A stretch of DNA of 40,375 bases from a virus: the IMG/VR virus record IMGVR_UViG_3300021964_000169, positions 1 to 40,375 of that record, one strand, 5' to 3'. The notes under the pieces are model-generated. The model did not search any database, was not told the DNA's origin, and saw only the letters and a list, made by a program, of their open reading frames with translations. The translations under genes and the position numbers were made by a program. This document shows, piece after piece, positions 3,440 through 40,374 of the stretch; position 1 is the stretch's first letter, and each line of letters opens with the position of its first letter.

Positions 3440-4993
3440 ATGGAATTTAATAACCCTAGTGAGATAGTTAAAACTCTCACATTTGGCAATGAAGCCAAAG
3501 AGCAAATTATGCAAGGCGTCGAAAAATTGTCAAACGCAGTAAAGAGCACATTAGGTGCCTCTGGAAAATGCGTGATATACGAAGACGCTCTTGGAAAACC
3601 GGTGATAACAAAAGATGGTGTAACCGTTGCGGAAAGCGTAGTCTTATTACATCCGGTTGAGAACATTGGCGCAACACTTATAAAAGAAGCGGCAAGCAAT
3701 ACAGTAAAAGAAGCCGGGGACGGTACAACAACATCAACTGTCCTCGCGCATTCTTTGCTAAAAACGGTTAATCAGCATTTAGATGAAGAAAAAATTAGAG
3801 AACTTAAAAGTGGCATTACTAGTGGCGCTGAAAAAGTTATGGTTTATCTTAATAAAGCCAGTATTGAAATTAAGGGTGACATGCTTAAGCAAGTTGCTAG
3901 TATTTCATGCAACAACGACACAGAGCTTGGAGATAAAATTGGACAAGCTTATGAAAAGGTTGGAAAAAATGGAGTCGTTTTAATGGAAGAGTCTGATACA
4001 AACGAAACTTATGTTGAGTTTGTTGACGGCGTACAATTTGACAGCGGCTTAAAATCCTCGCATTTATCTACGGATAAAAATAAAGGTACAGCCACATTAG
4101 AAGACCCATATGTTCTTATAGTATCTTCGCCGATACCTAATATAAGAAGAATACAAAATATATTAGAGTTTGTAATTAAAAATAAAAAGAGTTTACTAAT
4201 AGTAGCGGATGTAGATCAGCAGCCATATCAAACTTTGCTAGCTAATAAAGTAAAAGGTAATATAAAAGTAAATATAGTTGATTTGCCGGGCTTTGGTCCA
4301 ACTAAGCAACAAACGCTTGAAGACCTAGCGATACTAACTGGAGCTAAAATCATAAATGAAGAGTTAGGAGACGATTTAGACTTTATAGACCCTAATGTAT
4401 TAGGCAAAGCATTTAAAGCTGTTACAGACGATAAAAACACTGTTCTGCAAGTTGCTGAAGCAAACGAAGAGGTTGCATTAAGAATAATGGATGTTGAAAA
4501 GCAAATAGCTGAGGAATCAAATCCATTTTTTAAGAAAAAATTAGAGCAACGATTATCAATGCTAACTGGTCAAGTCGGCATAATTTATGTCGGAGCAGAC
4601 TCTAAGGTTGAGCTTAAAGAAAAGAAAGATCGTATTGAAGATGCAATATATGCGACAAAAGCCGCTTATAAAGAAGGTATAGTCCCTGGAGGCGGTGTTG
4701 CCTTATTAAATGCCTCTACATTAGTAAAAGCTAAAAACAAAGGTGAAGAGATATTGCTAGAAGCAATAAAATCACCATACGAAACTATATTAGAAAATGC
4801 TAATATGCCTGTTGTGTATCCTCAAATTAAAAATAGAGGTATAGATGTTAAAACAGGTAAAGATGTTAATATGATCAAAGCTGGAATTATAGATCCCGTG
4901 TTGGTTACAAAAACAGCTTTAAAGAATGCGGTAAGTGTTGTTAACACAATTATATCTGCCGATTGTATAATCAGTAATAAACGATTAGCATGA
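3440..4993 (+). CDS. groEL: Phage-encoded GroEL-like chaperonin (Hsp60)
   Basis: 517 aa, against about 545 in bacterial GroEL; the C-terminal GGM tail is absent (ends CIISNKRLA). Group I chaperonin signatures are present: TLGASGKCVIYE, TKDGVTVA (D59, equivalent to E. coli D52), GDGTTTSTVLA at 93-103 (D94, equivalent to D87), the apical PGFG at 283-286, IEDAIYATKAA (D401, equivalent to D398), GIVPGGGVALL and GIIDPVLVTKTAL. ATP binding and hydrolysis therefore look intact. In the apical domain, the segment equivalent to E. coli GYLSPYF reads GLKSSHL (203-209), so Y199, Y203 and F204 are replaced by L, H and L. The stop overlaps the groES start as ATGA, suggesting translational coupling. It probably folds a virion protein; the substrate is unknown. 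Confidence 0.95.
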   Translation: MEFNNPSEIVKTLTFGNEAKEQIMQGVEKLSNAVKSTLGASGKCVIYEDALGKPVITKDGVTVAESVVLLHPVENIGATLIKEAASNTVKEAGDGTTTSTVLAHSLLKTVNQHLDEEKIRELKSGITSGAEKVMVYLNKASIEIKGDMLKQVASISCNNDTELGDKIGQAYEKVGKNGVVLMEESDTNETYVEFVDGVQFDSGLKSSHLSTDKNKGTATLEDPYVLIVSSPIPNIRRIQNILEFVIKNKKSLLIVADVDQQPYQTLLANKVKGNIKVNIVDLPGFGPTKQQTLEDLAILTGAKIINEELGDDLDFIDPNVLGKAFKAVTDDKNTVLQVAEANEEVALRIMDVEKQIAEESNPFFKKKLEQRLSMLTGQVGIIYVGADSKVELKEKKDRIEDAIYATKAAYKEGIVPGGGVALLNASTLVKAKNKGEEILLEAIKSPYETILENANMPVVYPQIKNRGIDVKTGKDVNMIKAGIIDPVLVTKTALKNAVSVVNTIISADCIISNKRLA

Positions 4994-8749: not shown

Positions 8750-8945
8750 TATAGGTAAAGACTATAAAAATGACGCCATGCACTATGCTGTTGGACAGGA
8801 AGTGTATGGCGGCCATACTATAGTTAATATTATAGAGGAGGAAGAAAAGTACTCGATCTATATTCAAAAAGGCGAAGACGTTATACCTTGGAAAGATTTT
8901 AATAAAAATATGGCAATAGCCATTGAATATAATATCGATTACTAA
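8727..8945 (+). CDS. Conserved hypothetical protein (ISIGKDYKN type)
   Basis: 72 aa, opening MNLLRKISIGKDYKNDAMHY; the remainder reads as a small beta-rich domain (GQEVYGGHTIVNI, YSIYIQKGEDVIPWKDFN, AIAIEYNIDY). It overlaps the preceding gene by 23 nt and shares one base with the next start (TAATG at 8943-8947). I recall similar proteins in marine Bacteroidota phages without assigned function. The overlaps on both sides indicate tight translational packing and support a real gene. Confidence 0.65.
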   Translation: MNLLRKISIGKDYKNDAMHYAVGQEVYGGHTIVNIIEEEEKYSIYIQKGEDVIPWKDFNKNMAIAIEYNIDY

Positions 8946-9544
8946 TGAAAGGCGTTTTTGATTTTGTTATTACGCCTAAAGAGCATAGATATAACAATAC
9001 AAAAGCGGTTGGCGATAAAGAGTTAATAATAAACACAGAGCTACAAAACCATAATTTTGTTTCAAGAATAGGTGTTGTTATGGCTACGCCCAACCCAAAC
9101 CCTACCGGCGTACGCGAGGGCGATGAAGTTATATTGCACCACAACGTATTTCGTAGATTTCGGGACATAAGAGGCGAGGAAAAAAATAGCAAGAGCTATT
9201 ACAAAAACAATATGTATTTTGTTTCACCCGACCAAATATTTGCATATAAGCGAATAATAAAGTGGATCCCACTTAATGGGTTTAACTTTGTCAAGCCAAT
9301 TAAAGAAGACAAAATGTTTTCTATTAATTTTGAAAAACCGTTAGTAGGTATATTAAAATACAAAGACCCATCATTAACAGAAGTAAAAGAAGGTGACCTA
9401 GTTGGTTTTAAACCAGGCGCTGAGTATGAGTTTTTAATTGATAAAGAAAAATTATATCGTGTTCCAACAAATCTAATTACAATTAAATATGAATATCAAG
9501 GAAACGAAGAAGAATATAATCCAAGCTGGGCACAAAGCAGTTGA
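8945..9544 (+). CDS. Tandem GroES-like-fold protein
   Basis: 199 aa that read as two consecutive GroES-like beta-barrels. First (about 1-110): KELIINTELQNHNFVSRIGV, then a GVREGDEVILHHNVF strand, then MYFVSPDQIFAYKR. Second (about 125-190): KPLVGILKYKDPS, EVKEGDLVGFKPGAEYEFLI, DKEKLYRVPTNLITIKYEY. The order 'G-xV...V-x-GD-x-V-x-F...E...I-D-x-E-x-LY-x-V...I' follows the GroES core, including the diagnostic GD in each half. It differs from the single-domain groES at 4990. It may be a second co-chaperonin or a structural protein using the fold. It overlaps the next gene by 56 nt. Confidence 0.55.
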   Translation: MKGVFDFVITPKEHRYNNTKAVGDKELIINTELQNHNFVSRIGVVMATPNPNPTGVREGDEVILHHNVFRRFRDIRGEEKNSKSYYKNNMYFVSPDQIFAYKRIIKWIPLNGFNFVKPIKEDKMFSINFEKPLVGILKYKDPSLTEVKEGDLVGFKPGAEYEFLIDKEKLYRVPTNLITIKYEYQGNEEEYNPSWAQSS

Positions 9545-28409: not shown

Positions 28410-31400
28410 ATGTCAAAAATAGAAAACAAAAATTACCAATGGGATCAAGAATCCCAGCAGTTCGTTGAAGTATCGAGTGAACCACAAGATGACGCACAAC
28501 AGGATTTTCAAAACGGAGTTGCGGAGACGGATGCACTTGCAGCTCCAATATTCAAACCAGCGTCCGAAAATGGGGAATCCAGCTTGGAAGAGGATTTTTC
28601 GGTTTTACGATTAGGTGATGCCGAAACAACGGATATAACTGTAGAGGATTGGATTAAAGAAACAGAAGCCGGTATTCGAGAAGACATGACAGCAGATGAA
28701 CTTGACGCTTGGATAAATAGACCTGGTGGCCCATCTGATGATCAGTATTCTTTTTTAGAAGAAAAAGAAATATACGAAGCAAATAAAGACGATAAGAAAA
28801 AAGGTAAAAAACCTAAAACTCTTGATCGTTCACCATATATGGTAGAATTATTTGAGGGATCTGATTTAGGGCAATATGCTAATCAACCCTTTATTTTATA
28901 TAGTAAATCAAAACAATTTTTAGAGGAAGAAAGAAAACAAATACCTTTAATAAACACTAAACTTCAAAAAGAATTTGACGATGAGATTTATCGCTTAGAC
29001 TATTTAGCAAATAATATGGACACTGTTATAGCGTCCAACAGAGCTAATAAGTTTTTAGATATAAAAAATCAAATAAATAATTACGACACGCAAATACAAC
29101 AAGCGGAGTCTAATTATGAAAATGGTAAAATAAGCCTAGATCAAAAAGAATTAACAATTGAAAGGCTTAATTTTGATAAAAACGCTACTATTGAAAATTT
29201 ATCACCTTATGATAAACAACAATATGATAAAAATCTTAAAATATTAAATGAAGTAACTACGGCTAGTGATAAAGATACTTATAGTAGTTTTTCAAAAGAC
29301 GATGAAGAAAAAGCAAGCCTTAATAATAGAGTAGAGCAAGAAATACTAACAATAGCGCTGCAAAACGATAAGCTTCAAGGTAAAATATTAGATGGGAATT
29401 TAAATTTAGCAGGTAAAGAATCATTAATACAACAAGCTAAATCGGTTGTTCTTGAAGATGATTATAACGAGTATTTAGATGAGTTTAATAAAGCCGAAGA
29501 AATAATATTTTCTTTTGGGGACATGTCGGATATAACACCCGAGGCAGCCACTAAAGCACAAAATATAATTATAAATGCAGGAGAAAAAGTACAAGATTCT
29601 TTTGCTGAATTAAGTTTTAATGTTGGTGAAGGCGTGTTTTTAAATTCATTTGAAATGACAGATGAATTTCAAGAATGGAGAGACCGCCATATAAAAGATA
29701 TGGGTGTAGTTGGAGACTTGCTAGATGCCGGTGGAACTTTAGTGCAAGGGTTACAACAAATTGGAGGAGACTTTTTTGGTGGCAGCGCGATATGGCTAAA
29801 CGAAGTTGCGTTTGCGGGATTAGAAAAAGTTGGAATTGAAGCTCCTAATAAATATGGCCTAGAGTATAATAGGTTGGACATGGTTCAAGACTGGTTCGAG
29901 AATTATAATAATTTTAATTACTTAGGTGTTAGCGATCTTGGTGGCAGCATTTCTCAAGATGGATTTTCATTTAGATCAGGCACAAAAACTATTGCTAATC
30001 TTTTACCATTTACAATTGGTGTAGCTATGTCAGCTAGAAAAGGTGACATTAAAGGAACAAGAAGATTATTTTCCGCGTTAAAAGGCATGGGTGCTTCGCC
30101 CCGTGTTATTAATAGTATAAAAATGGGTGGCTTCGCTTACGGTGCAACTGTTAATGATAATTTTAACGAGGGTAAACAATTAGGGTTATCTACAGATGCA
30201 GCAATTGCATACTCAAGTATGACATCAACCGCAACAGCTTTAGTTCAAAGTATAATGCCGGACGCTAACTTTTTCAAAACAAGCGTTGGTAATACAATAA
30301 AACAGCAGCTTGTTGAAAATCTTAAAAAAGCAGGGAGCGCCGAAGCAAGAAAAGCAGTTGGCAAACAATTTTTTAACAATTTAATTGGTGAACTTGGTGA
30401 AGAAGAGGCTGAACTTGCTCTGCAAGATTTAGCTAAAATTACAGTAGGGCTAAGTAATGATACCCAATTTTGGGATTGGGACACTCAATTAGAAACAATA
30501 GCAGGTACAATACTATTAACGGGTAGCACATCTGCTGCGACGAGCTCGACTCAATACAACAATTTTAAGAACCAAGTATATAATACTTATAGGTTACAAG
30601 GCAAAGACGTTATAAGTACCTTAAACGAGGCTAAAAAGCAATCTGAAGCTAAATTAAAAAGAGCCAGAAGTGTTAAAGGGAAAGAAAATGCGCAAAGACA
30701 ATTAGATCAGATCAATGCGGCGTTATCTTATGGCAACGAAATCATGAAGGCCATAAATGTTGCTCCTGATATAATGAATGATAGTCAAATAGATTTACTT
30801 ATACAAAAAAGTAAATTAATATCGCAAAGAGATTCAAAAAGAGTTGGAGCTACAACAGAAATAGACCAACAAATTGCCGATATAGATGCTCAAATTGCAG
30901 GTACAGATGTTACAAAGCAAGGCGAAGTAATCCAAAAAAGAACTGAGGCTGGTGTTCAAAAAATAGCCGGCGATTTAGGTATTGAATTTGAAAAAGGGAA
31001 TACAGAGCAGGCGGCGAAACTTATTGAAGAGGAAAACAAAAGGCGCAAAAAAAGCAAAGAAAAGCCGATTGATGTTAAAAAGACATCAAATGATAACGGG
31101 TTTATAATACAAAACCCTGACGGTTCGCAAAAAATATTTATAAATGAGGATGTGGCAGGCGATAATAAAGCCGTTACAACAGCGCAGCATGAGCTTTTGC
31201 ATGGGGTTTTATTAAAAACAATTAAAGACAATCCCAATGCTATTGTACAAATGTCAAACGCATTGCGGTCTGAAATAGATAAGATGATACCCACGGGAGT
31301 TTCGTTTAATAATTCTTATATAAATGCAAGACTAGAAGCTTATAAAACAGATCCTGATAGCATAAAAGCTGAGGAGCTATTAACTATATTCTCAGAAGGT

Positions 31401-34400
31401 TTAACACAGGGCTTTATAGCATTTGAAGAAAATGCTTTTACAAAAATAGGCGACTCTGTAAGAAGAGCATTACAATCATTGGGTCTGGGTGTTAAATTTA
31501 ATTCTGGCCGAGATGTTTATAATTTTATAAAAGATTTTAACAAAAGCGTTGAAATGGGCCAGGGCTTAAGCAAAGGACTTCAGCGTACGGCAACAAAGGG
31601 AGCTAAAATAGGTACAAAATTAGGAAGTAGCAGTGCATTTTTATATAATGCAAATTTTGAAAACGCTGTACAAACTATTTATACAGAAGAATCAGATATG
31701 TCAGCGCAGCAAAAGGCCATACAAATAGCTCTTGTTTATAAAGATAAGGTTGCTGCACTAATAAATAAAAGTTCTGGAACTCCATTTGGTTTAAAAGAAA
31801 ATTATGCCGCGATGGAAAATGTGCTTATTGGTAAAACCAATACTAACAGCATATTTAATATTGTAATGAATTATAATCCCGACTCCGGTATATCATTAGA
31901 TCAAACAATAGGTAGATCTATAGCGGGGCAAATACAGTATGGCAATGCAACTGTTAAGTCTTCGGCTAACCTTTCTAGGGAAGCGGAGCAAGCTAAGAAA
32001 ATATTAAATGATCTTTCTAAAGAAGATGGATTTAATCCTCAAACCGGAAGAGATTATGAGATCGTAGGTAGTCAGCTTATTGGCATGACGTCTGCACAAG
32101 TTTTTAAAAGGTTTCCATCTTTAGACGACGGGAAAAAAGAGGAGCTTACTTTTGATATAATCGAACGGGTTCTTAGAAAATCACCGGGCAAACAAACGTC
32201 GGCAGATTTAAATTGGGACGGCAGAGGAGATTTTTACGGCTTTTTAAATGGCAGAATAAGCGATAGAATGTTAGACGCTTTAAAACAAAATCCAGATTAT
32301 TTATCTCAAATAGACCAGAATCAATTTGATCAGTTAGAAAAAGAAGCCAGCAAAGTAACAAACGAAATATCAGAAACAAAAGTAGAAGATAAACCTGTTT
32401 ATCCTAATTTAATAAAAACAAAAGTACTACCGTCAGATTTAGCAAGCGCGGTAAAAGCTAAAGTATTATCTACAATAAGAGTATTAAAAACTAGAATTGA
32501 CGCTGCCGCTGGTAAAAACGCATCTGTTACGCCTATAATAAATGATATTAAAAATCAAATGGGCAAGCAAGCTGACATTGAGTTTAAAAAAATGTTAGGA
32601 ACCAAAAAAGGAGATGCTTTAAAAAACAATTTGCTTAAGCTTAAAAAGCCTATTCTTGAAAATATGACTACAACTTGGTTAATGCAAGCTATGCCTTTTG
32701 CTGTGCAAAAATCAGTTGGTGGAAGTTATAGAGTTGATGAAGATGGTAAAAGAATAAAAAACGAAAATGATGAATTTATTTTTGACCCTAAGTTTACTTT
32801 AAATTGGCAAGGACAAAAAATTGACAGAGCAAAAACGTCGACAGATCAGCAAGGTAAAACTTCAGGGCCTGAAATTGTGAAAAGAGTACCAGCGGGCAGA
32901 ATAACAGATGAGCAGTTTTTAAGTTACATGTTTAAAGACGGTGAAATTATACGTGGCCGAAAAGAGTCTTTGGCAAAAGCAATGGCCGAAGAGTATTCTT
33001 TTGATTTATTAAACAGCGAGCTACAAGATCCTACAAGCAAAATTAGAGAAGCTTTTGAAAACAATCAAGAATTGCTAGGTGTTACTATAGCCGAAAATTT
33101 TATACAAGATTTTGCAAGACAAGCGGAAAGAGGGACTGTTAAAAGAAGCGGTAATGTAGCAATGTTTGAAGAAATGCTGTCTCTTGAAATAAGAGGCGAC
33201 ATTGATGGTTCCGCCGCTATGTTCGAATCTTTATCAAAAGAAGACAAGGAGTTTTGGCAAGCAGCTACTTCAGACTTAAGGGTAGCAACAACAAAATACA
33301 AAGCGGGGCTCAAAAAATTAAATGTACCTCAAAATGTAAAGCAATATTTAGATCAATATTTTAAAAATCCTTCGGCTAAAACGAATAAGCAGGCCATGAA
33401 GGAAATGAATAAGTTTAGTTTAGCTATGATTGATGCTTTACCTAATAACATAGTTAAAGCATTAGGCGCCGATTTCTTTGGGGCTCACTATAGATATTTA
33501 AACCCTAAGGACGGAAGAACTATGGGTGCTAAAATAAAAGCTAAAATAGACGCTTTACCAGAAACGGATTCTGATATAACTTTAATACAGGCGGGTTTTG
33601 GTTTTGTTGGAACACTTACAAAAGACGTATTATATAAAGATTTTAAAACTGTACAAGAAAAAGTAGATTACTTAACAGAGAACTACGGGGATAAAATTGA
33701 AGCTTTAAATACTGCAAACAAAGCTGCTATTGAAATGGTAGTTAAAACAGCATATGATCTTGCTATTAAAAACCCTGAATACACAATAGGTTTTTTAAGA
33801 ATGCTAGAATCAACAACTAATATTGGCAAATCCTTAAGAGCGTTAACCGGTATAATTGATATACAAATGACAGCAGAATCACAGGCTGTATATGTAAACA
33901 AAAAGACGGGACAAGGCTACGGTAATACTTTAACAGACGCGCAAAGACGTAAATTAAAAAGCGGTGAAATCGTTATAAATGAAAATCATCCTAATTACAA
34001 AGACGCTCAAAAATTTATAAAAGACGGATCAAAACAAACTTTAGCTCAATTGCTAAGAATTAAAGGTGAGCATGCCACACCCTCATCTAACTTTAACTTA
34101 AAACTAGCTGATCAATTTCTAACTGCTTTAAGTATAGGTTTAGAAAACCCAGGGGGAGTTGAGCAAGCAAAAAATTCTCTTGTAGCAAATACAAACTCGT
34201 TAGCTATTGATTTTAATCAACAATTAAATACTAAAGTGCTATCCGATATACAAGATGCTAAATTAGGTTCAACTAGTGATATAGGGGATTTAAGATTGTT
34301 AGCTTTACCAGAAGCTAGTCAAGCGTCGTTTTTTGATATAGAAGGCAGGCAAACAATTGGTAGAGTGCAAAGACTTGTTAAAGAAATATTTAATAAGGAT

Positions 34401-37313
34401 AAAACAAAAACAATTGCTAAAATTAATACTGAGCAAAAAGCTATAAATGAAGGTATTAAATCGTCTAAGCCCGCAAAAGGCATTAGCGTGTATGATTTTG
34501 ATGACACATTGGCTTTTAGCAAAAGCGAGGTTATAGTTAAAATGCCGCAGGATCCAGAAATACTTGATATTGCGGCAAGAAGGATGTTTGCTGAAGAGTT
34601 TAAAGACAAGCCAGGTTTTTTAAGAACGTTTGACAATCTTACAAAAGAGCAGCAAGAAAAAGTAAGCAATAGTGTTCCAAGATCAACAAAAAAGATTACA
34701 CCCGCTGAATTTGCAAAGCAAGGTGATAAATTAGCTAAAGAAGGTGCTGAATTTGATTTTAGCGAATTTAGCAAAGTGGTGCAAGGGACGCCTGGGCCAT
34801 TAGCTCCAAGACTTAAAAAAGCAATTGAAAAATTTGGCAACCAAAATATATTTGTATTAACAGCCAGGCCAGCTGAATCGGCAAATGCTATACACGCATT
34901 TTTAAAAGGTCTAGGTTTAGAAATACCTCTTAAAAATATAACAGGTTTAGCAAACGGGGCGCCTTCCGCTAAAGCTAATTGGATGGTTGGAAAGGTATCT
35001 GAGGGGTATAACGATTTTTATTTTGTAGATGATCATTTAGGAAATGTAAAAGCTGTAAAAGATGTTTTAGATACATTCGATGTTAAAGGCAAGGTGCAGC
35101 AAGCACGCGTAAAAAGATCCGCTAATCTAAGTATAGAGATTAACGAAATGATAGAGCGCAACAAAGGCGTTAGAGCTGAAACCACATACTCAAAAATAAA
35201 GGCCAGAAAAGACGGTGCTCGCAAAGGTAGATTTAAATTTTTCTTACCATACGGAGCAGAGGACTTTAGAGGATTAACATCTTATACATTAGCAGGCAAA
35301 GGAAAGCAAGGTGAAGCTGATCAAAAATGGTTTGATGATAATTTAGTTAAACCATATTTAAGAGGTATTGCGGCAATGGAGGTTGCAAAGCGCGCGCTTA
35401 AAAATGATTTTTCTTCATTACTAAGATCAATACCAGGTCTTAAAAAGCGGTTAAATAAAAGAATAGGTGATACTGATTATACAGTTGATCAAGCGGTTCG
35501 TGTATATTTATGGACACAACAGGGTTTTAAAATCCCAGATATATCTAAAAGAGACCAAAAAAAATTAAATAGTTTAGTTAAAAAAGACCCTTCGCTTGTT
35601 TCTTTCGCTGAGTCACTACAGGCTATTTCTAAAAAAGATAAATGGGTCGAGCCTGCTGATTATTGGATAGCTGGCAGTATATTAAAAGATATAAACGATA
35701 TTGGAGAAAAAACAAATAGGGCGGAGTATTTACAAGAGTTTAATCAAAGTGTAGATATTGTTTTTAGCGAGCAAAATTTAAATAAGCTTGAGGCTATATA
35801 TGGCACTCGATATACTAACGCTTTAAAGAATTCAATAGCCAGAATGAAGTCTGGTAGAAACAGACCAGCGCAGCCAGGTGCTTACGAACAAAAATGGCTA
35901 AACTGGGTTAACAATTCTGTTGGTACTATAATGTTCTTTAACAGACGTTCGGCTATGATGCAGATGTTGTCTTTTGCGAACTTTGTAAATTGGGGTGATA
36001 ATAACCCGTTAAAAGCAGGTATAGCTTTTGCTAATCAGCCAGCTTACTGGAAAGCATGGTCTAAAATATTTAATTCACCGAAGCTAAAAGAGCGTAGAGG
36101 CGGTTTAAAATCCGACGTACAAGAACAGGAGATTGCAAGTCAAGCTAAAAATAGTAAAGACAAAGCAAGCGCAGTAATTGCATACTTATTAAAAATAGGT
36201 TTTACGCCTACACAATTAGCGGATAGTTTTGCAATTGCAACCGGAGGAGCGACGTTTTTAATTAACAGAACAAAAACATATAAAAAGCAAGGTTTATCTC
36301 AAGCTGAAGCAGAAGCAAAAGCGTTCGAAGACTTTAGCGCTATTTCTGATGAAACACAGCAGTCTGGTGATCCAATGCTTATTTCCGCACAACAGGCAAG
36401 TCATTTAGGGCGCCTTATATTGGCTTTCCAAAACACGCCTATGCAATATACCAGATTAATGAAAAAAGCTGGTCAAGATCTTATAAATGGACGTGGGGAT
36501 GCTAAGACTAATATTAGTAAGATAGCCTATTACGGGTTTGTACAAAACCTTATATTCAGTGGGTTACAAAACGCATTGTTTGCATTAATACCAGGATTTG
36601 ATGATGAAGAAAAAGAAGACGAACAATACGAAAAAATCATTAATACAAAGACTGAAAGAATTGTTAATTCTATGGTGGACACTATTCTTAGGGGATCTGG
36701 ATTAACAGGGGCTGTTGTATCAACATTAAAAAATACTATTAATAGATATTACAAAGAAGAGAAAAAAGGATATAATGCAGATCACGCTTATACATTATTA
36801 GAGCTGGCAAACGTTTCGCCACCAATAGGTTCTAAGCTTAGAAAAGTATATGGCGGGATACAAACAAAAAAGTTTGATAGAGATGTAATAGAAACGCAGG
36901 GTTGGGATGTTACATTAGATGGCAGATTTAATATATCGCCTAATTACGAGATACTGGGCTCTCTTACATCAGCGGGTTTAAATTTACCATTAGATAGAGC
37001 ATTGGCAGAGGTGGACGCTATTTCTGAAATGCTTGACGCAAGAAACACCTCTTATCAAAGAATAGCTTTAGGATTAGGCTGGAGAACTTGGGATGTTAAT
37101 GCAGATAAAGAAGAGGAAGAGAAAGTAAAAGTTGAAGGAAAAGCCAGAAGAAAAGTAGAAGGCCAAGAAAAAGCTAAAAGAACAAGAGCTGAAAATAGCG
37201 CAAAATTAAGAGGGCTTCAACAAAATCTTACTATTGAACAGGCTAATGCTTATGGTAAATGGAAAAAAGGAAAAACGGTTAAAGAAAAAATTAAATACCT
37301 GGAAAAATTATGA
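28410..37313 (+). CDS. Giant (2967-aa) internal virion / ejection protein with metallopeptidase- and HAD-type motifs
   Basis: The largest gene of the window and third in the ejection-protein run. Seen: acidic N-terminus (1-110); coiled-coil region (about 155-370); Gly/hydrophobic segment (about 430-475); HELLH at 927-931 (H927, E928, H931), with E989 or E996 as possible third zinc ligand; a HAD-type block with DFDDT at 2029-2033 (D2029, D2031), LTARP at 2150-2154, K2188 and FVDDH at 2205-2209; amphipathic/hydrophobic stretch at about 2705-2732 (FVQNLIFSGLQNALFALIPG); and a Lys/Glu-rich C-terminal helix. Known: giant phage polyvalent proteins carry such enzyme domains and are injected with DNA. 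Inference: an ejected multi-enzyme protein, perhaps with cell-wall or host-protein and phosphate-transfer activities. No lytic transglycosylase or RNA-polymerase DxDxD motif was found. The stop overlaps the next ATG. Confidence 0.75.
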   Translation: MSKIENKNYQWDQESQQFVEVSSEPQDDAQQDFQNGVAETDALAAPIFKPASENGESSLEEDFSVLRLGDAETTDITVEDWIKETEAGIREDMTADELDAWINRPGGPSDDQYSFLEEKEIYEANKDDKKKGKKPKTLDRSPYMVELFEGSDLGQYANQPFILYSKSKQFLEEERKQIPLINTKLQKEFDDEIYRLDYLANNMDTVIASNRANKFLDIKNQINNYDTQIQQAESNYENGKISLDQKELTIERLNFDKNATIENLSPYDKQQYDKNLKILNEVTTASDKDTYSSFSKDDEEKASLNNRVEQEILTIALQNDKLQGKILDGNLNLAGKESLIQQAKSVVLEDDYNEYLDEFNKAEEIIFSFGDMSDITPEAATKAQNIIINAGEKVQDSFAELSFNVGEGVFLNSFEMTDEFQEWRDRHIKDMGVVGDLLDAGGTLVQGLQQIGGDFFGGSAIWLNEVAFAGLEKVGIEAPNKYGLEYNRLDMVQDWFENYNNFNYLGVSDLGGSISQDGFSFRSGTKTIANLLPFTIGVAMSARKGDIKGTRRLFSALKGMGASPRVINSIKMGGFAYGATVNDNFNEGKQLGLSTDAAIAYSSMTSTATALVQSIMPDANFFKTSVGNTIKQQLVENLKKAGSAEARKAVGKQFFNNLIGELGEEEAELALQDLAKITVGLSNDTQFWDWDTQLETIAGTILLTGSTSAATSSTQYNNFKNQVYNTYRLQGKDVISTLNEAKKQSEAKLKRARSVKGKENAQRQLDQINAALSYGNEIMKAINVAPDIMNDSQIDLLIQKSKLISQRDSKRVGATTEIDQQIADIDAQIAGTDVTKQGEVIQKRTEAGVQKIAGDLGIEFEKGNTEQAAKLIEEENKRRKKSKEKPIDVKKTSNDNGFIIQNPDGSQKIFINEDVAGDNKAVTTAQHELLHGVLLKTIKDNPNAIVQMSNALRSEIDKMIPTGVSFNNSYINARLEAYKTDPDSIKAEELLTIFSEGLTQGFIAFEENAFTKIGDSVRRALQSLGLGVKFNSGRDVYNFIKDFNKSVEMGQGLSKGLQRTATKGAKIGTKLGSSSAFLYNANFENAVQTIYTEESDMSAQQKAIQIALVYKDKVAALINKSSGTPFGLKENYAAMENVLIGKTNTNSIFNIVMNYNPDSGISLDQTIGRSIAGQIQYGNATVKSSANLSREAEQAKKILNDLSKEDGFNPQTGRDYEIVGSQLIGMTSAQVFKRFPSLDDGKKEELTFDIIERVLRKSPGKQTSADLNWDGRGDFYGFLNGRISDRMLDALKQNPDYLSQIDQNQFDQLEKEASKVTNEISETKVEDKPVYPNLIKTKVLPSDLASAVKAKVLSTIRVLKTRIDAAAGKNASVTPIINDIKNQMGKQADIEFKKMLGTKKGDALKNNLLKLKKPILENMTTTWLMQAMPFAVQKSVGGSYRVDEDGKRIKNENDEFIFDPKFTLNWQGQKIDRAKTSTDQQGKTSGPEIVKRVPAGRITDEQFLSYMFKDGEIIRGRKESLAKAMAEEYSFDLLNSELQDPTSKIREAFENNQELLGVTIAENFIQDFARQAERGTVKRSGNVAMFEEMLSLEIRGDIDGSAAMFESLSKEDKEFWQAATSDLRVATTKYKAGLKKLNVPQNVKQYLDQYFKNPSAKTNKQAMKEMNKFSLAMIDALPNNIVKALGADFFGAHYRYLNPKDGRTMGAKIKAKIDALPETDSDITLIQAGFGFVGTLTKDVLYKDFKTVQEKVDYLTENYGDKIEALNTANKAAIEMVVKTAYDLAIKNPEYTIGFLRMLESTTNIGKSLRALTGIIDIQMTAESQAVYVNKKTGQGYGNTLTDAQRRKLKSGEIVINENHPNYKDAQKFIKDGSKQTLAQLLRIKGEHATPSSNFNLKLADQFLTALSIGLENPGGVEQAKNSLVANTNSLAIDFNQQLNTKVLSDIQDAKLGSTSDIGDLRLLALPEASQASFFDIEGRQTIGRVQRLVKEIFNKDKTKTIAKINTEQKAINEGIKSSKPAKGISVYDFDDTLAFSKSEVIVKMPQDPEILDIAARRMFAEEFKDKPGFLRTFDNLTKEQQEKVSNSVPRSTKKITPAEFAKQGDKLAKEGAEFDFSEFSKVVQGTPGPLAPRLKKAIEKFGNQNIFVLTARPAESANAIHAFLKGLGLEIPLKNITGLANGAPSAKANWMVGKVSEGYNDFYFVDDHLGNVKAVKDVLDTFDVKGKVQQARVKRSANLSIEINEMIERNKGVRAETTYSKIKARKDGARKGRFKFFLPYGAEDFRGLTSYTLAGKGKQGEADQKWFDDNLVKPYLRGIAAMEVAKRALKNDFSSLLRSIPGLKKRLNKRIGDTDYTVDQAVRVYLWTQQGFKIPDISKRDQKKLNSLVKKDPSLVSFAESLQAISKKDKWVEPADYWIAGSILKDINDIGEKTNRAEYLQEFNQSVDIVFSEQNLNKLEAIYGTRYTNALKNSIARMKSGRNRPAQPGAYEQKWLNWVNNSVGTIMFFNRRSAMMQMLSFANFVNWGDNNPLKAGIAFANQPAYWKAWSKIFNSPKLKERRGGLKSDVQEQEIASQAKNSKDKASAVIAYLLKIGFTPTQLADSFAIATGGATFLINRTKTYKKQGLSQAEAEAKAFEDFSAISDETQQSGDPMLISAQQASHLGRLILAFQNTPMQYTRLMKKAGQDLINGRGDAKTNISKIAYYGFVQNLIFSGLQNALFALIPGFDDEEKEDEQYEKIINTKTERIVNSMVDTILRGSGLTGAVVSTLKNTINRYYKEEKKGYNADHAYTLLELANVSPPIGSKLRKVYGGIQTKKFDRDVIETQGWDVTLDGRFNISPNYEILGSLTSAGLNLPLDRALAEVDAISEMLDARNTSYQRIALGLGWRTWDVNADKEEEEKVKVEGKARRKVEGQEKAKRTRAENSAKLRGLQQNLTIEQANAYGKWKKGKTVKEKIKYLEKL

Positions 37314-39191: not shown

Positions 39192-39211
39192 AGTGCTTTA
39201 TATCGCACTAT
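39192..39211 (-). terminator. Dyad repeat copy 2, likely nrdA terminator
   Basis: AGTGCTTTATATCGCACTAT on the plus strand. On the minus strand the stem AGTGC/GCACT overlaps the nrdA stop (TAG at 39210-39208) and is followed by TTTTATTAATATTTAA, so it can serve as a weak rho-independent terminator for the minus-strand operon. It is a near-copy of 39131-39150. The 40 bp between the two copies is AT-only filler with no recognisable element. Confidence 0.55.
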
Positions 39212-40374
39212 CCATCACAACTTAAACAGTCTGGGTCCATTGCACTTGCTGCAATATCACCCCTGAGTACTGATTCGGTACGCATATAATATAAGGTCTT
39301 AACACCTTTCTTCCATGCATCTAAATGAACTTGGTTAATCCATTTAGGTGTTGCCTCAGAAGGAAACGCTAAATTAAGTGATACAGATTGATCAACATAT
39401 TGCTGCCTTATACCAGCTTGATTAACCAGCTCTAATTGGTTTATTTCCTTAAAGGTTTTAAATACATCTTTAGCTGGTATGTCGTGCGTCATTGTTATGC
39501 CTTCAAGCTCTTTAATGTCTTGCACACTACCGCCATCAGCAAGTATCTTATCCCATATTTCATTTGTATTTAACTTATGCTTTCTTAAAAGCTTTAAGAG
39601 CGTGGGGTTCTTCCTAATGAACGTACCCTTCGCACTTTGTTCCGTGAAAACATTAGCGGCCCAAGGCTCAATGCCAGGACTAACATTACCACTAAGCTTA
39701 CTATTAGACACAGTAGGAGCAACAGCCCTAAGATGGGTGTTACGATAACCAGTGCCGGCACACCAAAGAGGTTCGCCATAAACTTCCGCAAGGTCCATAG
39801 ACGCTCGTTCGCTTTCGATTTTGATTTGCGAAAATATTTTCCTAGTTTCAAATTGAGCAAGTAGACCCTCAAAAGGAATGCCCTTTTCTTGGAGATACGT
39901 GTGCCATCCGAGTACACCCAGCCCAAGCGCTCGTCCTTTCGTAGCAGAACGAACGGCATTTTCAAAACCGCGAAGTCCTTTGGCTCTTTGAATAAATTCC
40001 TCCATAACGCCATCAAGAAACCACGTGGCGTCGTATATAAGGTTAGTACCTTTCCATTCTTCATATTTAGCTAAGTTTAATGATGATAAGCAACAAACAA
40101 AACTATGACTCTCGTCTGTGTGCAATGTAATTTCACTACATATATTTGTCATATGTACTTTTAATCCGTTGTCTTTGTATGCTTTTGGATTTGCTTTGTT
40201 AGTATTTCCTTTAAACAAGATATACGGTTCTCCAGTTGCTTTTCGCTTTCTAAGTAATTTACTCCATCTATTTCTAGCTTCCGAATCTCCTTGTTCAAGC
40301 TTACGCATAAACTTATCACCAACAACTGCGCACTGATGTAAGTTAAGCGATTGTCTGTTAACATCGCCTTTAGG
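39208..40374 (-). CDS. nrdA: Ribonucleotide reductase class I large subunit, C-terminal part (partial)
   Basis: On the minus strand the frame is open up to the window edge (388 codons before the stop), so the ATG at 40308 is internal and the gene continues beyond. It reduces ribonucleotides to deoxyribonucleotides for phage DNA synthesis. Seen: VHMTNICSEIT with the active-site N, C and E (equivalent to E. coli N437, C439, E441), VCCLSSLNL with the partner Cys, GRALGLGVLGWHTYLQ, SNSKLSGNVSPGIEPWAANV, the radical-transfer tyrosine pair in KTLYYMRTES, and the C-terminal CLSCDG (C-x-x-C) used for re-reduction. All key residues visible are intact. It runs opposite to the structural operon and probably marks the edge of the nucleotide/replication module. 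Confidence 0.93.
   Translation of the reverse strand, partial: PKGDVNRQSLNLHQCAVVGDKFMRKLEQGDSEARNRWSKLLRKRKATGEPYILFKGNTNKANPKAYKDNGLKVHMTNICSEITLHTDESHSFVCCLSSLNLAKYEEWKGTNLIYDATWFLDGVMEEFIQRAKGLRGFENAVRSATKGRALGLGVLGWHTYLQEKGIPFEGLLAQFETRKIFSQIKIESERASMDLAEVYGEPLWCAGTGYRNTHLRAVAPTVSNSKLSGNVSPGIEPWAANVFTEQSAKGTFIRKNPTLLKLLRKHKLNTNEIWDKILADGGSVQDIKELEGITMTHDIPAKDVFKTFKEINQLELVNQAGIRQQYVDQSVSLNLAFPSEATPKWINQVHLDAWKKGVKTLYYMRTESVLRGDIAASAMDPDCLSCDG

Follow-up and report, generated by a model that had tools for sequence, protein, structure and literature searches.

Giant ejected multi-enzyme proteins carrying a zincin are a described class in phages, and the peptidases of these polyvalent proteins comprise a three-stranded core, a helix bearing the HExxH motif and then a glutamate-bearing helix (Iyer et al., 2017; PMC5512222). 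In the virion RNA polymerase (vRNAP) of phage N4, the C1 domain with its conserved HExxH adjoins a large helical C2 domain (PMC12633501), and the crAss cargo proteins provide a precedent for packaged giants (PMC10136315). Regarding HAD phosphatases, those reported from jumbo phages and belonging to the Pnkp and Swiss-army-knife families have been described as RNA-repair phosphatases (PMC7824862), and no HAD domain within a phage protein of the polyvalent or ejected kind turned up in the literature that was searched. A preliminary description of the viral DNA considered here had called the delivery of a HAD domain by an ejection protein with an HELLH motif unusual; as far as a giant ejected multi-enzyme zincin protein is concerned it is not, the class being described (PMC5512222), but the HAD is indeed the less usual part.

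The window, i.e. the whole stretch of DNA analysed, is the entire virus record of 40,375 bases. It encloses an ORF with an ATG start and no internal stops, which encodes a protein of 2967 aa with the following features:

28410..37313 (+), giant polyvalent-type ejection protein gene, 2967 aa, the final large gene of the virion module
28410..31838 (+), exchangeable N-terminal half, aa 1-1143, delimited by its identity to the relative L009 compared with the rest of the protein
30366..30575 (+), weak match to LPD14 (large polyvalent protein-associated domain 14), aa 653-722, scoring under the curated cut-off
30930..31547 (+), zincin-like metallopeptidase domain, about aa 841-1046, from conservation, AlphaFold model and structural matches
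31188..31202 (+), HELLH, aa 927-931, exact and conserved motif
31374..31376 (+), E989, invariant and predicted to be the third zinc ligand
34470..35075 (+), HAD phosphatase domain, aa 2021-2222, from motif conservation, predicted fold and structural matches
34494..34508 (+), HAD motif I, DFDDT, aa 2029-2033, exact and conserved motif
34545..34688 (+), cap-site insert of the HAD, 48 aa long (aa 2046-2093), which most relatives do not have
34860..34871 (+), HAD motif II, TARP, aa 2151-2154, exact and conserved motif
34971..34973 (+), HAD motif III, K2188, exact and conserved residue
35028..35033 (+), HAD motif IV, D2207-D2208, exact and conserved residues
35127..37310 (+), helical C-terminal region, aa 2240-2967, conserved in relatives and seen in the model

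In shuffled copies of the giant protein, 0.0015 HExxH and 0.75 DxDxT are expected by chance. Since DxDxT alone stands at about chance level, the motif by itself could not carry the HAD assignment, and both domains are considered real because of conservation and fold rather than motif counts alone. The motifs first noticed by eye, namely HELLH at 927-931, DFDDT at 2029, TARP at 2151, K2188 and DD at 2207-2208, all recur exactly in the ORF; the proposal that a zincin and a HAD share one polypeptide is borne out by fold, conservation and synteny, and the AlphaFold predictions show both of the elements on which it hung, a HAD core at 2029-2209 and a helix carrying HELLH. These unrelated catalytic domains are kept together well beyond the window, as an HExxH lies upstream of the HAD, mostly 800-1,200 residues ahead, in 92 of the 93 relatives whose ORF is complete at its 5' end, L061 being the sole exception (L numbers designate related loci). 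The identity of the domains and the architecture of the protein, a zincin and a HAD in one chain, are held with high confidence.

Regarding the peptidase domain, H927, E928, H931 and E989, the latter 61 residues past E928, are invariant in a 35-sequence alignment around HExxH that averages only 19% identity per column. AlphaFold models a zincin-like core with confidence, and in it HELLH sits on one helix (model residues 128-141) and E989 on another (model residues 191-203). When compared with solved structures, zincins of the lethal-factor type rank top, with Z scores of 5.4-6.4 vs. at most 3.7 for unrelated entries, and carboxypeptidase, selecase and leukotriene A4 hydrolase come lower in the ranking. 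Because these scores are middling, the assignment rests on fold and ligands together; as modelled, the HELLH segment is a zincin metallopeptidase by both. The match to the lethal factor family, drawn from the same model, concerns the fold alone and does not imply toxicity.

As for the second catalytic domain, motif I, TAR in motif II, lysine in motif III and DD in motif IV do not vary among 37 aligned sequences and come in HAD order, motif I reading DFD[DE]T and motif II TAR[PAT] across about 98 distinct relatives. A few motif I listings of the D.DGS or DIDET type in the relatives, the window included, are earlier chance matches, the true motif I of the window being DFDDT. In a 968-aa AlphaFold model covering the HAD and the C-terminal region, aa 2021-2222 adopt a HAD Rossmannoid fold, and all 50 matches listed by VIA-align for this model are HAD-fold proteins (Z 7.9-10.6). 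The top one is the 3'-phosphatase of T4 Pnkp (5uj0; Z 10.6, rmsd 2.8, 122 residues), with several other HADs within Z 1 of it. The E-values of a Foldseek comparison of the same model with the PDB are all weak, probably because of its length. By its predicted fold and catalytic motifs, aa 2021-2222 is a HAD phosphatase, and one that looks active judging from the modelled fold and the catalytic residues. It is also the best conserved stretch of the giant protein, with 87.5% aa identity to L009, a dN of 0.09 and a dS of 1.6, the latter near saturation. At the level of the subfamily, PHROG 415 ('polynucleotide kinase') matches several family members along the HAD (E 6e-6 to 4e-3) and DUF2608 matches 33 of the 37 HAD sequences, while in an hhalign profile comparison with four reference proteins T4 Pnkp scored best, yet weakly, with motif I alone aligned. 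Searches of the HAD against the PDB, by phmmer and by profile, gave no useful match.

Scanning with the HAD sequence retrieved 45 loci and scanning with the HAD alignment at least 475 confirmed matching stretches, 80 of which were kept for analysis. The complete ORFs among these relatives encode 2,058-3,621 aa (median 2,838), the giant proteins of L101, L103 and L107 reaching about 3,600 aa, some 600 aa above the usual length. In single records, i.e. L031, L035/L086, L050, L063 and L008, the giant ORF is apparently broken by stops or frame changes, which may be assembly errors or genuine splits. Matches in prokaryote genomes amount to 14 loci in MAG contigs, mostly short, from which no host name can be derived, and tblastn of isolated phages with the whole protein and with the HAD gave no match.

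The gene also shuffles domains. Over aa 1-1143 the protein is about 20% identical to L009 and has no significant match to L002, whereas from about aa 1144 onward identity to L009 is 49-88%; in other words, either an exchange or divergence past recognition has affected the N-terminal half, with the zincin motif retained. The switch between the exchanged half and the conserved C-terminal part is abrupt, at about position 31838 (aa 1143/1144). At the cap site of the HAD of L002 and L014 (about aa 2026-2187) is nested a complete P-loop kinase, with AAA_33, zeta toxin and bacterial Pnkp as best family matches, and a near-identical kinase follows the zincin, far from the HAD, in L035/L086 (aa 834-995). 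This second location indicates that the modules are mobile, so that proximity is weak evidence of teamwork between kinase and HAD, and the nested kinase was dropped as proof of a kinase/phosphatase pair. The cap site of L114 holds instead another piece, of about 140 aa. A piece of 45-48 aa occupies the cap site in the window, L007-L009, L052, L054, L058, L060, L063, L065, L071 and L079, and lies directly upstream of HAD motif I in L092, L117 and L120; to judge from its sequence distribution, it would be a very small mobile module.

The C-terminal region, aa 2240-2967, is helical in the AlphaFold model and conserved among the relatives. When the whole 968-aa model was searched against BFVD, uncharacterised proteins of uncultured viruses ranked first, followed by proteins annotated as polyvalent, as 'Structural protein' in elemoC and as 'Internal virion protein D', all of them large viral proteins, with matches that span the HAD and the C-terminal region together. 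Pfam, PHROGs and NCBIfam searches of the window protein or of its pieces gave sub-threshold matches only, among which LPD14, a known polyvalent module (E 0.001-0.003, 17.9-19.5 bits vs. a cut-off of 27).

The gene closes a virion block that starts with GroES and continues with the large terminase, the portal, proteins of structural and capsid type, one of 1425 aa that weakly matches the crAss muzzle and several further genes, one of which encodes 408 aa. Cellulophaga phage phi38:1, Calle_1 and Flavobacterium phage elemoA share this gene order, their closing gene likewise being a giant annotated as structural, and the virion module of the window is related to those of Callevirus (Pervagoviridae) and Elemovirus. 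Homologues of the virion genes of the window lie near the giant gene, all upstream and on the same strand, in 99 of the 102 loci with more than 2.5 kb of upstream sequence. The positional counterparts, phi38:1 gp101 (1691 aa) and elemoA gp21 (3694 aa), both 'structural protein' by database annotation, are likewise giants closing a syntenic virion module. ElemoA gp21 shares the HExxH region with the window protein (E 7e-7 by blastp when three sequences were compared, E 5.6e-5 by hhalign), the sequence match being confined to the peptidase part, whereas phi38:1 gp101 has neither HExxH nor convincing sequence similarity to the giant of the window; the HAD motif set is absent from both. Elsewhere in the window were observed a GroEL-like chaperonin (3440-4993; phrog_5725, E 2e-140), a GroES-like co-chaperonin (8945-9544), a 731-aa protein whose repeats resemble ice-binding beta-rolls and YadA heads, with scores at or around the Pfam cut-offs (161-2356), and, at the window end, an ORF resembling the ribonucleotide reductase large subunit that covers the later part of the profile only (39208-40308, minus strand). 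In the phi38:1 record (NC_021796.1 15000-40000, L125), a tRNA splicing ligase of the RtcB type and 16 tRNAs are annotated.

Altogether, the gene probably encodes a giant protein internal to the particle of a marine phage, serving as cargo or for ejection, of polyvalent build and with a zincin, a HAD and a helical C-terminus. By analogy with the known giants, this protein is also likely to be virion cargo delivered to the host: the preliminary description had read it as an ejection protein from gene order, which the synteny of the virion module supports, ejection into the host being the inferred part, and conservation of both enzyme domains in about 100 uncultured relatives suggests that the phage probably carries them in the particle and delivers them with its DNA. 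From its position and the annotation of its counterparts, the protein would be made alongside the virion proteins and packaged; like the crAss001 cargo and N4 vRNAP, it would then be ejected with or before the DNA. Either in the head or after entry, the zincin could cleave the giant chain itself and free its domains, or it could cleave a host protein. During the first minutes after entry, the HAD would dephosphorylate a substrate that is small or lies at an end, the likeliest candidates being a nucleotide or a nucleic-acid 3' end.

Regarding this substrate, the favoured guess, tentatively held, is an enzyme acting at nucleic-acid or nucleotide ends. The suggestion made at the outset, a phosphatase of nucleotides or of tRNA or DNA ends, stands insofar as it fits the tied-top match to T4 Pnkp, PHROG 415 and the nested kinase of the L002 type; it falls short insofar as sequence does not settle the subfamily and no RNA ligase was found in 12 related records. 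In these 12 records, which may be incomplete, neither RNA ligase (PF09414) nor RtcB (PF01139) was found, and their incompleteness is why this weakens a role in RNA repair without excluding it. No tRNA was found within 10 kb across 25 loci. HADs commonly act on small phosphates, and the domain could instead target a small nucleotide used in signalling or defence, and not nucleic-acid ends, disarming an early alarm of the host before the phage genes are read. Domains with a predicted action on nucleotides and nucleotide signals are already described from polyvalent proteins (PMC5512222), but no specific link to a signalling system appears in the window or the relatives examined, and the top fold and family matches favour, not decisively, Pnkp-type phosphatases, which makes this alternative rather unlikely. 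More ambitiously, the HAD might represent an undescribed class of virion-delivered effector, which would heal or edit nucleic-acid 3' ends or erase a defence nucleotide in the first minutes of infection, ahead of all phage gene expression, and would in some relatives pair with the inserted polynucleotide kinase as a particle-borne end-healing enzyme; so specific a reading is considered unlikely.

Delivery of working enzymes must also be weighed against a role in assembly only, in which the zincin would mature the giant chain inside the head, while the HAD would be structural or regulatory and inactive in the host. For such a role speak the region of N4 vRNAP that holds the peptidase domain, which is required for encapsidation, and DdrB of phage P1, which is cleaved prior to packaging (PMC5512222); yet the catalytic residues of the HAD are all invariant across strongly diverged relatives, which exceeds what a scaffold needs, and such a restricted role appears quite improbable. 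Finally, the reading of DFDD as part of the active-site motif of a crAss-type virion RNA polymerase, evoked by the giant size and position of the protein and by the crAss muzzle-like gene of this phage, is refuted for the DFDDT domain by its HAD fold, common to all 50 structural matches listed, TAR, K and DD coming in HAD order and no polymerase family being matched, and keeps next to no probability for the protein.

The preferred reading, a packaged and delivered giant with a peptidase and a phosphatase, extends the known range of domains in giant phage ejection proteins by a well-supported phosphatase and brings out the HAD-bearing giants as a widespread group, mostly from uncultured viruses. 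Should injection take place, a phosphatase and a peptidase would be among the first enzymes met by the host, which bears on how such phages survive early host defences. Natural comparisons are available in the relatives whose kinase or N-terminal half is exchangeable, and the Cellulophaga and Flavobacterium phages are culturable relatives sharing the virion module.

Compared with known systems, the likeness to T4 Pnkp lies in its HAD 3'-phosphatase, the top structural match of the HAD of the window and tied with other HADs, whereas the alignable sequence is limited to motif I and a kinase is lacking from the window protein. T4 Pnkp is, besides, a free enzyme produced inside the cell. A stand-alone marine HAD of 187 aa (L137, NHDW01000006.1, labelled as a Methylococcaceae MAG) is homologous across the whole HAD (hhalign E 1.6e-21), but it is a separate small protein where the HAD of the window is fused within a giant chain. 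The ejection protein of podovirus T7, gp16, is of the transglycosylase type, and the window protein gave no family match to such a domain; the initial remark that no transglycosylase is recognisable agrees with the family searches of the giant protein, which gave neither transglycosylase nor lysozyme, though a diverged copy could escape them. With N4 vRNAP it shares giant size, ejection, as far as can be judged, and a zincin domain with HExxH, behind which comes a large and mostly helical part (PMC12633501), but the N4 protein is an RNA polymerase and no polymerase domain was found in the window protein. A close parallel is offered by the polyvalent proteins, a concept that the giant protein fits: in both, a very large phage chain brings together unrelated enzyme domains, including a zincin with HExxH and a helix-borne glutamate, the genes adjoin virion genes and domains swap between relatives (Iyer et al., 2017; PMC5512222). 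The LPD14 match stays below threshold, and the HAD phosphatase, unnamed in the main text of that survey (PMC5512222), is what sets the window protein apart within this build.
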